This document shows positions 54,440 through 59,933 of a stretch of 64,000 nucleotides of DNA, in pieces. The position numbers were made by a program, and so were the translations under genes. Every line of letters starts with the position of its first letter. Positions within the stretch are counted from its first letter, which is position 1. The notes under the pieces are model-generated. The model did not search any database and was not told the origin of the DNA. It saw only the letters and a program-made list of their open reading frames with translations. This DNA comes from Magnolia sinica (lineage: Eukaryota > Streptophyta > Magnoliopsida > Magnoliales > Magnoliaceae), in the NCBI RefSeq assembly GCF_029962835.1, contig NC_080590.1:66928501-66992500 (forward strand), read 5' to 3'.

Positions 54440-54756
54440 TAATTTTGATATTAGAGCAAGTTCTGCTCCTGAGAGAGTCTCTCCCTCCCTCTTCTTTGCC
54501 AAAATCTGTCTTAAACTCCCTCTATCAGCCAACCCAAACCTCGCATCCAAAGTCCATTAACCCCTTACTTAAACCTGTACTTCCAGCTCAAAACAGCCCA
54601 TAAGGTTGCATTTAAACAAGTTCCAAGGCAATCCATAGTGCTATTCAAAACCAAATCTGGCCCCCAACAGCCCCATAACTTATCTATTCTCAACCGTAAT
54701 CCAACCCAGAAAGGTTGACCCTAGATAGTCCATGCCCTGTCTAATTCTAGGTCTCA

Positions 54757-54879: not shown

Positions 54880-56068
54880 TGATGCAGGACATGAAAATTA
54901 AATATGCTATGCAAGATTTCAGGCTTTAGATCAAACTAATTTTAAAACAATCACAAAAAATTCCACATCCTACATAGAAGTCAAGCATTCAACAAGGGGA
55001 ATCTATGCGGGTCCAACCCTACACATGTTAGAGCTGGATCAATTAAAAATTATAGACTAAACAATGCTCGAAGGAGAGTAAATTCATCCACACATGCAAA
55101 TGATTACGTCCTAATCCAAGGGATTCACATGTTTCAAATTGGGAAAACCTAGGGTTTGCAAAAGTGGAATAGGACTTGGGATTTAGAATTATATAGGTTT
55201 AGGTTAGGGAAATAAGGCGAGAGATGAGTGAAATAAAAAAGAGAAACAAACCCAAGATGATCCACACATGTGGACAGCGGCCCGAGCCGACGCACATGCG
55301 TGGGATCCTGCCCACACGTGTGTGGGGCCATGAATCTGAAATCAGTCAGCTAGGTGTTGGTCGGCCAGGGGAGGTCCACCTTCATGCTACGTTTCACGCC
55401 GATTGGATGTCTGGTTTGTGCACGGTGTTCCATCGAAGTTTCAGCCCTCCTGTAGGGCCAGATTCTGGAAATCTGTTGTAGGGGAAAGATTAGTTGCAAA
55501 CGTGGGTGGATTTGATGAGGGGATGACTGTAGGAGATGAGGAATATGGATGGTAGGAGATGTGGACGATTTGGGATGGATGTGGTTTTGCACCACGGTAG
55601 TTAGCCCTTCGAAGAAGGGAGGGTTTTGCGCCCAATTAGGCTTCACAACTTAGAGAGGAGCAGGAAAATGCAGAAATTTTATTCAATTTTCAATGAAAGA
55701 AAAGACTACAAGGGGTGCCTATTTATAATAAAATCCTATACTCCAAAACTCGCGCCATGTGCGCACCCTATTACTTGGAGACGAAGTAATTAAAAATAAC
55801 AACTAATCAAAGCAATCTAAATCGTCCATGATATTCCTAATAACAATAATAAGCAAAACCCAAAGTACTAGATCATCTCGAATAGTGGGCCACGATCATG
55901 AGATCCCATGGTAGGATTCACATGACGATCGAGTCCACCCCAAGGAACCAAAACAGTCCCCTAGCTAGGGGGTCCCCCTTGGACGTCGACATCGATCTAG
56001 ATCGATGGTGGGGCCCTCCTTAAGTACGTGCATAGGGGGGCGCGCGTGTGCGCGAGATGTCCCCATCA
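54880..56068 (-). repeat. 3' LTR of element 3 (1189 bp)
   Basis: It is near-identical to the right LTR apart from the hAT insertion. A TATA box reads TTATAAATAGGC on the minus strand (55718-55729). Confidence 0.93.
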
Positions 56069-56166
56069 ATTCTCCCCGGCTGCGAAGGTTTCGCCATTGG
56101 CGAAACAAAACTCCTGAATTGCTTCGAGATGTTAGGATCAAGTCTCTGAAGCTCCTCCTCAGTGAG

Positions 56167-57467
56167 TCACGTACTGTTTGAAGCTGGGCGTGACTTCCAC
56201 TTGACCAAGAACTTTTGAAATCCGCCGTCCGATGTCGATACTATCTGATTGTCCAAAATATTCTCTATCTCTTCTCTGGGTGTGAGAAGGGTAGGTATGG
56301 GAGGTAGAGGCTGAGAAGATGGGTCGGGAGGGGTCCATAGATCAAGGGAAAGGTCTGAGGAATTAGGATGGTTAGGTGAAAGGCCGGACAATGTGTCAGT
56401 GGTCCCCTGAAATGCAATCAGATCCTCCATATTGAATGTGGAACTAATTCCCATGGAAGGTGGAAGATCTACCACATACGCATTAAGACTGTTTCGTTTT
56501 ATAATTTTGAATGGTCCAGCGCTACACGCGTGTAATTTACGAATAACTCCCTGACGGTACCGCTCTGGCCTGATGCGGACCATCACAGAGTCCCCTACAT
56601 TGAATTCCTTGAATCGTTTATGATGGTCTCCAGAAATTTTGTAATGTTCATTACTAGTTGTAATCTTTCGCCTGATTTTTTGATGCAATGAGTGAATGTG
56701 ATGCGCAAAAGACTCTGCAGACTCTGATGGCCTATGAGACAGTGACATAGGGACAAGATCAATAGGTTTCCTAGGTTTATAACCAGTAACGACTTCAAAA
56801 GGACTTAGACCTGTGGACCTATCGATATAACTATTAAACGCAAACTCGGTTATAGGTAGTACGGTGTCCCACATCTTGGTGTGCTGTATATCCCTCATAG
56901 GGGGAAACTCATTCAGTAGATCATTAGGAAAGACATCATGAAACTCATCCACTATCGGAATGGCCTCAGTGGGTAACTCTACACTAGCCTCTAGTGCACT
57001 CTCTCTAGCCACAAGGCCGTACATGTCATACAACTCAAAATAATAGTCCATGTCTGCCAACTAATCTAGAAAGCTTTTGGGTCTAAGTGACCATCAAACT
57101 TGGGAGCATTTACTCTAACTCCTTTGAGAAGTTGCGCATCGGGGTCATAGTGGTCTTGATGTCCCTCATGGGGTGGGTGCAGGGGTGTGTGCCCATGACC
57201 GATTCCTGGGCCACCTCCATTCCTTGGTCTATCCTCCTGACTACCTGCCTGAGATTGGACATCTTCCCCAATGGTGGGGTTTGCCCTGGCGGAGGTCTCT
57301 AGTTGGGTTATGCGCACATCAAGCTGTTCAAAACGTTGGTCAATACATTGTTCTAAGCGCTTACCCAAAGAATCAAACTGCTGGGTCATTTTGTTCATTG
57401 GCTCTTGCAATTGCTCCATGTTTAGTGTAGGGTGCAAGCCAAAACCATGACCCGTACGTGTGGGCAT
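56167..57467 (-). pseudogene. Gag-pol remnant of element 3, two internal deletions
   Basis: The gag N-terminus starts MPTRTGHGFGLHP (57467), with coiled-coil-like words FDSLGKRLEQCIDQRFEQLD, and reaches FDGHLDPKAF near 57066. There, loss of one base and a G-to-A change give stops. The next frame (57060-56167, 297 codons) continues gag as MADMDYYFELYDM, then jumps to the segment between protease and RT (VDEFHDVFPNDLLNEFPPMR). It then jumps to the integrase C-terminus (WDTVLPITEFAFNSYIDRST, GLSPFEVVTGYKP, GPFKIIKRNSLNAYVVDLP) and ends in a partial chromodomain (ILDNQIV, FLVKWKSRP). Protease, RT, RNase H and integrase core are gone. Both junctions keep the reading frame. Confidence 0.9.
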
Positions 57468-57778
57468 ACAACTACTAACTCAACTTAGAGACCCTCTACA
57501 CAACTATATGCGTCTAAATGAGACTAAATGATCCTATAGGACTCTATATGAGGGAAACTACGCAACGCTCCTAAAATTCCAGCAACATAACTGTCCAAAC
57601 AGTTTGTTAACAGAAAATTCAACAATGAAAATTTGGGAATTTTTGATAGTAGAAAATTCAGCAGTCTATGTTGTGAATGAGGGGTCCTAAACAACCCTAT
57701 ATGATGAAATTTAATGCAAAATAAACGTGAGTAGACTAAACCCCAAACATGCAATGCATTCCCCTATAAGAACCCTAA

Positions 57779-57790
57779 GCTCTTATACCA
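57779..57790 (-). other. Primer-binding site of element 3
   Basis: The minus strand reads TGGTATAAGAGC, one base away from the tRNA-Met site TGGTATCAGAGC, four bases inside the right LTR. Confidence 0.85.
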
Positions 57791-58936
57791 AATTTGATGC
57801 AGGACATGAAAATGAAATATGATATGAAAGATTTCAGGCTTTAGATCACACTAATTTTAAAACAATCACAAAAAATTCCACATTCCACATAAAAGTTAAG
57901 CATTCAACAAGGGGAATCTATGCGGGTCCAAGCCTACACATGTTAGGGTTGGATCAATTAAAAATTATAAACTAAACAATGCTCAAAGGAGAGTAAATTC
58001 ATCCACACATGCAAAGGATTACTTCCTAATCTAAGGGATTCACATGTTTCAAATCGGGAAAACCTAGGGTTTACAAAAGTGGAATAGGACTTGGGATTTA
58101 AGATTATTTAGGATTAGGGTTAGGGAAATAAAGCGAGAGAGGAGTGAAATAGAAGAGAGAAACGAACCCAAGATGATCCACATGTGTGGACAGCGGCCCA
58201 GGCCTGACGCACGTGCGTGGGATCCTGCCCGCATGTGTGTGGGGCCCACGAATCTGAAAGCAGCCAGCTAGGTGCTGGTCGGCCAGGGGAGGTCCACCTT
58301 TGTGCCAAGTTTTATGCCGATCGAATGTCTGGTTTGTGCACGGTGCTCTGCCGAAGTTCCAGCCTTCCTGTATGGCTAGATTCTGGAAATCTGCTATAGG
58401 GGAAATATTAGCTGTAAACGTGGGTGGGTTTGATGAGGGGATGGCTGTAGGAGATAAAGAACATGGATGGTAGGAGATGGGGGTGATTTGAGATGGATGT
58501 GGCTTCGCACCACGGTAGTTAGTCCTTCAAAGAAGGGAGAGCAATTAGGCTTCACAACTCAGAGAGGAGCAGAAAAATGCAGAAATTTTATTCAATCTTC
58601 AAAGAGAAAAAAGACTACAAGGGGTGCCTATTTATAATAAAATCGTATACCCCAAAACTCGCGCCATGTGCGTACCCTATTACTTGGAGATGAAGTAATA
58701 AAAAAATAACAACTAATTAAAGCAATTTAAACTGTCCATGCTATTCCTAATAACAATAATAAGCAAAACTCATAGTACTAGATCATCTCGAATGGTGGGC
58801 CACGATCATGAGATCCCATGGTAGGATTCACATGACGATTGGGTCCACTTCAAGGAACTAAAACACAATCCCCTAGCTAGGGGGTCCCCCTTGGACGTCG
58901 TCATCGATCAAGATCGATGGTGGGGCCCTCCTCCTT

Positions 58937-59847
58937 GGGGGGGGGGGGGGGCTGCACACAGGTCGGTTCGGTCTGGTTATGGGGTGAAACCGGAACCGAA
59001 CCGTTCCTAACGGTTCTACAATTTTTGGAACTGGAACAGGACCGTTAGCACCCTAGAATCGAACCAGAACCGGACTGTGAAAAATAGTTCGGTTCGGGAT
59101 CGGTTCCACGGTTCTGGGTTACCTGCAGTTTCTTCAAGCCCTCAATTTTCACCTTCAGATCTTTGCAAGCATTATCAAGACTTTCAAACTCCTGTTTGAC
59201 CCCAACAATTACAAACCTCATCATCATAAAAACCAAACCCAGTATTACAGAGCAAAAGAGAAGCTACAAAATCAAACAGACCTTCTTCAAGTTGGACTTC
59301 TCCAACAACAACAAATCCACCTCTTTCTTCAATTCAGCATACGTCTGTAGATACCGAATCAAGAGCATTAGCCTCGTTTCATTAGATATCCAATAAACAT
59401 CCGATGCATGTGAAATTGTGGTATTCACAACGATTTATTTTCTGCCAATGTTGAAAAAGGTGGGCCATGACATGAAGATTACTGAGAGAGGAAATTGGAA
59501 GAATCCACTCACGGTGAGAGAGAGAGAGAGGGAGGGGGGGGGGGGGGGGGCAGCTGTCAGCGAGAGAGAGGGCAGGGGCAGGGCAGGGGCGGCAGCATAG
59601 TAGTCGGGCTAGAGAGATTGGATATTTAGGTTTTTTTTTTTTTTTTTTTTTTTTGTTTTAAAATAAAGGTTCGGATCGACGGTTTGGGTCACGATTCGGT
59701 TCTACAGGGCCTTAAACCGGAACTGATCTGTATCCAACCGTTCTCGAAATTTTGGAACCGGAACCGGAACCGGTGCTGTCTAGAACCGGACCGATCCAAC
59801 GGTTCCAGTCCGGTTACACGGTTCTACCGGTTCGATGTGCACCCCTA
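58937..59847. mobile_element. Non-autonomous hAT-like element carrying a captured gene fragment
   Basis: The right end reads TGTGCACCCCTA and the left end reads GGGGCTGCACACAGG after a G run, giving hAT-like inverted ends (TAGGGGTGCACA type). The first 190 bp and last 190 bp are packed with GGAACCG/CGGTTCC words, as in subterminal transposase-binding regions. The 8-bp target duplication cannot be fixed because the left end has become a homopolymer of about 14 G. The middle is not repeat-like: it holds two short exons with intron borders (59123-59344). A long G run (59525-59550 area) and a T run (about 59630-59654) are also inside. No transposase is present. Confidence 0.75.
59123..59344 (-). 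pseudogene. Captured coiled-coil gene fragment (two exons, one intron)
   Basis: On the minus strand, exon A (59344-59282, 63 bp) starts after TCTACAG and ends before GT. It encodes TYAELKKEVDLLLLEKSNLK plus one K. Exon B (59191-59123, 69 bp) starts after TCAAACAG and ends CTGCAG before GTAACC. It encodes EFESLDNACKDLKVKIEGLK and then KLQ. The intron between them is 90 bp. Both exons are whole codons in phase 0 and keep a charged heptad-like pattern across the join, so they look like two consecutive exons of a coiled-coil protein. The parent gene is not recognised. Flanking intron pieces are also included on both sides. Confidence 0.65.
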
Positions 59848-59933
59848 ATGTGTGCGAGATGTCCCCATCAGGCTGACCCTAGATAATCCATGTCCTGTCT
59901 AATTCTAGGTCTCTCGATTGATTAACTCCCCCC

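Follow-up and report, generated by a model that had tools for sequence, protein, structure and literature searches.

A Pack-hAT element in Magnolia sinica carrying two consecutive exons and an intron of a host coiled-coil gene

The window analysed here, a 64,000-nucleotide stretch of Magnolia sinica (C18:66928501-66992500), contains at positions 58949-59847 what is almost certainly a Pack-hAT element (hereafter the window copy), whose ancestor captured about 404 bp of the host gene LOC131216914 and subsequently moved, landing here in an LTR. The main features are as follows (positions of the window).

54880..56068, minus strand: partner LTR (TGATGC...CCATCA), showing the insertion site free of the hAT element
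57795..59870, minus strand: LTR holding the hAT insertion (TGATGC...CCATCA); its part 57795-58932 matches 54880-56020 at 90%
58949..59847, no strand assigned: non-autonomous hAT (Pack-hAT) element, 899 bp as aligned, with near-full-length relatives on C12 and C7
58949..59118, plus strand: left terminus together with its GGTTC-rich subterminal zone (about 170 bp), which is conserved across the family at 87-91% in scored matches
59115..59512, minus strand: captured host-gene block (59116-59511 by BLAST), placed by alignment to the parent (L009:4777-5180) and two sister copies
59123..59191, minus strand: copy of parent exon 4, EFESLDNACKDLKVKIEGLKKLQ, 23 aa, phase 0, then GTAACC
59192..59281, minus strand: intron 3 of the parent as copied here, 90 bp long against 95 bp in the gene, GT...AG, GTCTGTTT...TCAAACAG
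59282..59344, minus strand: copy of parent exon 3, TYAELKKEVDLLLLEKSNLKK, 21 aa, phase 0
59668..59847, plus strand: right terminus, ending TGCACCCCTA, together with its GGTTC-rich subterminal zone (about 180 bp)
59848..59855, no strand assigned: presumed 8-bp target duplication, right-hand copy, ATGTGTGC; the homologous site in the other LTR is GCGTGTGCGCGAGATGTCCCC

The ends of the element family have the form TAGGGGTGCACA...TGCACCCCTA. In most relatives TAGGGGTGCACA is found at both ends as a short terminal inverted repeat, with the GGTTC/GGAACC repeats of the subterminal zones internal to it. To characterize the family, the genome was searched with the whole element (2335 candidates, of which 40 were scored and gave 65 matches) and with the left end (40 scored of 2353 candidates); these candidate counts represent a first look and not a copy number. 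Most of the other listed whole-element matches cover the ends only (query positions of about 13-182 and 730-911). Among 30 loci cut out, the right end is in range in 26 (none in L036, L042, L053, and L057), and with five more elements added, 31 were compared in total, the window copy being one of the 31. Flanking 8-mers match at 7-8 of 8 positions in 26 of these 31 elements and exactly in 17, whereas shuffled flank pairings averaged 0.076 such elements and never gave more than 2. The five elements that fall short are the window copy (3 of 8), L040 (3, with the left boundary offset by one base in the scoring script), L045 (0), L049 (6), and L016 (6). Thus, the hAT-like termini and dense GGTTC/GGAACCG ends proposed in the initial annotation are real, and we assign the family to the hAT superfamily according to its 8-bp duplications, short terminal inverted repeats, and subterminal zones.

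As for the window copy itself, the first TA of its left end is not recognisable in a G-run, which occupies the left flank and leaves no duplication visible there. The right flank, ATGTGTGCGAGATG, continues the LTR, and the partner LTR reads CCTCCTTAAGTACGTGCATAGGGGGGCGCGCGTGTGCGCGAGATGTCCCC at the insertion site, i.e., it preserves the element-free site. The G-run of the LTR and the GGGG of the element end appear to have merged on the left side, which would account for the missing duplication. Of the extent 58937..59847 given originally, the right limit holds; the left limit, however, has to be moved to 58949, the first 12 bases being the G-run. Inside, the captured block gives way to GA, G, and T runs, and no open frame there exceeds 91 aa. 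At only 899 bp the window copy is non-autonomous and has no internal transposase. An Rfam search of the window at the gathering threshold yielded 0 matches.

The element lies near one edge of LTR 57795-59870, and GGCTG is present on both outer sides of the retroelement (54880-59870). To the left of the hAT insertion, the two LTRs differ at 104 of 1134 positions (K2P 0.099). Using a rate of 4e-9 per year, derived from the 1.2e-7 per generation and 30 years per generation given for M. sinica in its genome paper (PMC10999834), this would correspond to about 12 million years of divergence. The inner part of the retroelement contains an integrase-end frame (SH3_Tf2-1, E 1.3e-13) with a gag-like frame directly beside it (our own reading, with no Pfam match at the cutoff), and most of pol is thus missing. 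A Chromo match at the integrase end has an E-value of 0.0029 and 17.9 bits, below the cutoff of 25.1. The earlier description of a hAT inside a chromovirus LTR is borne out by the LTR pair and GGCTG as far as the LTR context is concerned, and the host is described here as an internally deleted, chromovirus-like retroelement, a label that rests on this sub-cutoff chromodomain match. Separately, a 44-bp stretch located just outside one LTR is repeated at 93% about 125 bp outside the other (54712-54755 and 59870-59913).

A search of the genome (1.84 Gb, 19 chromosomes as published, PMC10999834) with positions 59112-59415, ignoring simple repeats and very common words, returned 4 places: the element copies on C18, C12, and C7, and the parent on C10. 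The parent match, C10:67726120-67726479, corresponds to query positions 180-575, i.e., to the interior alone. It lies outside any element, since the 9.9-kb locus around it (L009) matches the query solely at this block and has no element ends. On the minus strand of L009 there is a gene of five phase-0 exons (333, 57, 63, 69, and 150 bp), which, joined from sequence, give a 223-aa protein ending in a stop. This protein is annotated as M. sinica LOC131216914 (99% over 78% of the query, exons 1-4). The annotated protein (isoform X2) agrees with the joined exons 1-4 and has a different C-terminal end; our exon 5 is supported by DLNLP and a YGMS end common to relatives.

The captured block begins within intron 2 of the parent, runs through exons 3 and 4 with intron 3 between them, and ends in the first part of intron 4. 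In the window copy the acceptor CTACAG precedes the first exon and the donor GTAACC follows the second, and both exon copies have lengths divisible by 3 in an open frame (minus-strand frame 59090-59398). In comparison with the parent, 127 of 132 coding bases are equal, and 3 of the 5 changes are replacements. The exon-intron-exon piece with proper borders and both exons in phase 0, as claimed from the letters alone, is therefore confirmed. As for the parent with the same 90-bp intron, which had been suggested as a check, the homologous intron is present; its length, however, is 95 bp, the window copy being 5 bp shorter.

Near-full-length relatives of the window copy are located at C12:53222720-53223617 (76%, gapped alignment) and C7:67051332-67052187, with target duplications GCTTTTAC and ACACTCAT, respectively. 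Both have damaged exons. In the C7 copy, exon 3 is interrupted by an in-frame stop, exon 4 closes with another, and the donor behind exon 4 has been lost. The C12 copy lacks the acceptor before exon 3 and three bases of exon 3, and its exon 4 likewise closes with a stop. These two copies bear on whether the window copy supplies its exon pair to host transcripts, or small RNAs acting on LOC131216914. The open frame, phase 0, and GT/AG borders that it keeps would fit recent use, and published Pack-TYPE elements donate exons to host genes (PMC8903248). Nevertheless, we regard such use as very improbable, given the stops and broken splice sites of both sisters, the 3 replacements among 5 coding changes, and the position of the window copy inside an LTR. 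The changes in the block look like drift without constraint, as far as so few sites can tell, and most probably the two exons are carried along as passengers, with no function at the protein level.

The three copies differ in the amount of flanking intron: intron 4 extends about 47 bp further in the C12 and C7 copies, and more of intron 2 is left in the window copy. Taken by itself, this could suggest several independent captures from the same gene. However, in gap-free columns the three copies have in common 14 single-base differences from the parent (copy-specific differences number 3 in the window copy, 5 in C12, and 15 in C7), and all three carry within the intron-2 part a 44-bp stretch that is absent from the present parent. 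Moreover, the junction GGTTCTTCAAGCATGAC is identical in the C12 and C7 copies, the corresponding part having been lost from the window copy. Repeated capture is thus very improbable, and the shared sites together with the shared stretch argue for one capture followed by transposition. The element was mobile after the capture, its three copies standing at unrelated sites on C18, C12, and C7. The same 14 differences and 44-bp stretch also imply that the parent as it is today differs from the donor, owing either to later change in the parent or to change in the ancestor of the element.

Jukes-Cantor distances for the block to the parent are 0.053 (window copy), 0.075 (C12), and 0.104 (C7), and those between copies are 0.045 (window-C12), 0.086 (window-C7), and 0.078 (C12-C7). 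The element ends diverge more than the block (0.12 to 0.20). At the same rate of 4e-9 per year, the block would have separated from the parent very roughly 6 to 13 million years ago, a figure that includes the exons and measures from the present parent instead of the donor.

The parent protein has 141 relatives at E <= 1e-3, and the organisms named among the best 120 of the 141 are plants. When the parent, the 44-aa peptide of the window copy (which spans the captured part only), and 8 of the 120 relatives are aligned, nine columns are invariant across the ten sequences, and all nine lie within the captured exons. As the peptide reaches no further, these columns do not single out the captured exons as the best conserved region of the protein; the RASPTTPLSWSG stretch of exon 1 is conserved too. 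Pfam reports no family at the cutoff for the parent protein and the 44-aa peptide (weak matches to Filament, HALZ, and bZIP_1 only), which is why we describe the protein as coiled-coil; some of its relatives carry source names as bZIP-domain proteins. The parent is thus a gene of a conserved plant coiled-coil family, LOC131216914, and the host coiled-coil gene predicted in the initial annotation does exist, on C10 and with relatives across plants. Neither observation that would have told against a captured fragment was made: the host gene with these exons was found, and 0 of the 4 genome places is a transposase gene.

In principle, a transposon exon can give rise to a gene, so that the block might be an original transposon part, such as a transposase gene, and the C10 gene its derivative. 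No result points to this order of events beyond that general possibility, and it is extremely unlikely in view of the relatives that the C10 gene has across flowering plants, the C10 locus being without element ends, and the absence of the block from most other elements compared. A transposase origin of the block is rejected in view of the 4 genome places and the plant-wide gene family. Finally, exons of 21 and 23 aa would by themselves carry little weight, but a chance open frame inside a MITE can be dismissed as next to impossible, because the match to a gene with the same exon borders is near-identical (127 of 132 coding bases).

The coiled-coil block is one of many interiors in the family. 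With a criterion of >150 bp of matches, the interiors of the 31 elements cluster into 19 groups. L012, L033, and L045 fall into one group with the coiled-coil class, and L035 and L049 fall into another with L047. Both cross-links are 69-82% matches in the right-hand part beside the right end, and without them there would be somewhat more than 20 groups. The left breakpoints, judged by eye, lie just inside the GGTTC zone in most copies.

Several interiors match other genes. L031 contains a NAC domain (Pfam E 1.3e-20) in a 206-aa open frame (L031:1774-2391), with L021 belonging to the same class; we take this piece to be BTF3-like. An IBR domain, presumably from an RBR ligase, is found in L047 (L047:1678-2088, E 1.3e-10). 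A tandem array on C15 (C15:76868529-76951365), the apparent parent of the IBR piece, has six places that match the L047 interior at 82-92%, and a further match at 93% on C16 is probably another element. L046 carries a Dabb domain (stress-responsive A/B barrel; L046:1065-1490, E 9.2e-8). As for L055, an HSF DNA-binding match (L055:1058-1450, E 0.007) falls below the cutoff. The L055 interior matches five places at 95-100%, L055 itself and the L042 locus included, and C15:13560221-13560550 matches its positions 1-331 at 95%, which makes C15:13560221 a candidate parent. The interior common to L035 and L049 (L035:890-1490) matches C15:51774396 (92%) and C3:100867730-100868207 (L068). At the latter place the frame runs on into a kinesin motor domain (E 5.3e-22), and according to this frame L035 and L049 carry the predicted 5' end of a kinesin gene with its parent at C3. 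Besides the coiled-coil gene, at least four others (kinesin, IBR, NAC, and Dabb) have thus contributed pieces to the family, and perhaps an HSF gene as well.

A Pfam match or a found parent is available for 8 of the 26 elements with a right end in range (7 without HSF), or for 10 of 31 (9 without HSF), in a non-random sample drawn by left-end similarity. The Pfam scan covered 20 frames from 18 of 28 interiors (the other ten being L012, L021, L030, L033, L037, L040, L041, L045, L048, and L049), chosen by eye from 76 frames, some of them after a likely protein had been noticed. It gave 3 matches above the cutoff (NAC, IBR, and Dabb) and 1 weak match (HSF), and no hAT transposase match among these 20 frames. 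The control, 20 open frames from interior-length flanks (the longest per locus, 20 longest of 24), gave 0 Pfam matches at E <= 0.01. The difference between interiors and flanks is not strong evidence, the numbers being too small alone and the two sets not strictly comparable.

Taken together, these observations support the following history. Since the intron is retained, the ancestor of the element took up the approximately 404 bp of LOC131216914 through genomic DNA, and the captured block came to lie between the two subterminal zones. This uptake may have occurred by template switching or faulty gap repair where the subterminal repeats end on their inner side. The element then moved to at least three chromosomes, presumably with transposase supplied in trans by a hAT relative. 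The window copy landed in one LTR of the older chromovirus-like element and probably has since lost its left duplication in the G-run.

Among known systems, the Magnolia element resembles the Mutator-like Pack-MULEs in carrying pieces of host genes. Pack-MULEs, however, belong to another superfamily and have longer terminal repeats and 9-bp duplications. The initial annotation considered a hAT carrier inside a chromovirus LTR less usual, which is fair for a hAT carrier insofar as the authors of a maize Ac/Ds study call gene capture rare in hAT (BMC Genomics 2011 12:588, PMC3260210). Such carriers have nonetheless been published, namely Ds2-22 in that study and Pack-hAT (PMC8903248). Ds2-22, as described in the maize study, holds exons 5 and 6 of an ILR1-like gene together with the intron. 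It is likewise a non-autonomous hAT with two consecutive exons and an intron from a gene on another chromosome, acquired via genomic DNA. In contrast to the Magnolia element, it represents another hAT lineage (Ac/Ds) with its own 11-bp ends (PMC3260210), and the Magnolia capture, unlike that of Ds2-22, was passed to three copies in a family that holds many other interiors.

The Pack-hAT elements of maize and rice (PLoS Genet 2022, PMC8903248) similarly combine non-autonomous hAT ends, 8-bp duplications, host fragments, and clusters of copies. They have, however, Ac and Bg ends and were described in grasses, and the main text of that paper makes no mention of Magnolia. Grapevine Hatvine-6 (PLoS One 2008, PMC2528002) also has common ends and variable interiors matching exons and introns. 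Its copies share a part coding for transposase according to that report, whereas the 20 Magnolia interior frames scanned have no hAT transposase match. Among the papers listed by our literature searches we found, judging by title, none on hAT or Pack-hAT gene capture in Magnolia. Since hAT capture with retained introns has already been published, the Magnolia element is a further example of a known phenomenon; the case itself is new and unusually well documented.

It is conceivable, although we consider it somewhat doubtful, that gene capture is unusually active in this Magnolia hAT lineage, with fixed ends of about 170-180 bp, freely replaced interiors, and host-gene pieces in about one third of the sampled copies. 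If so, hAT elements in Magnolia sinica would be comparable with Pack-MULEs in rice. For a magnoliid tree, the present case makes the parent, the junctions, the daughter copies, and the element-free site (in the other LTR) all available. Moreover, several captures between fixed ends allow breakpoints to be compared across many events, and such a comparison bears on how cut-and-paste transposons acquire DNA.
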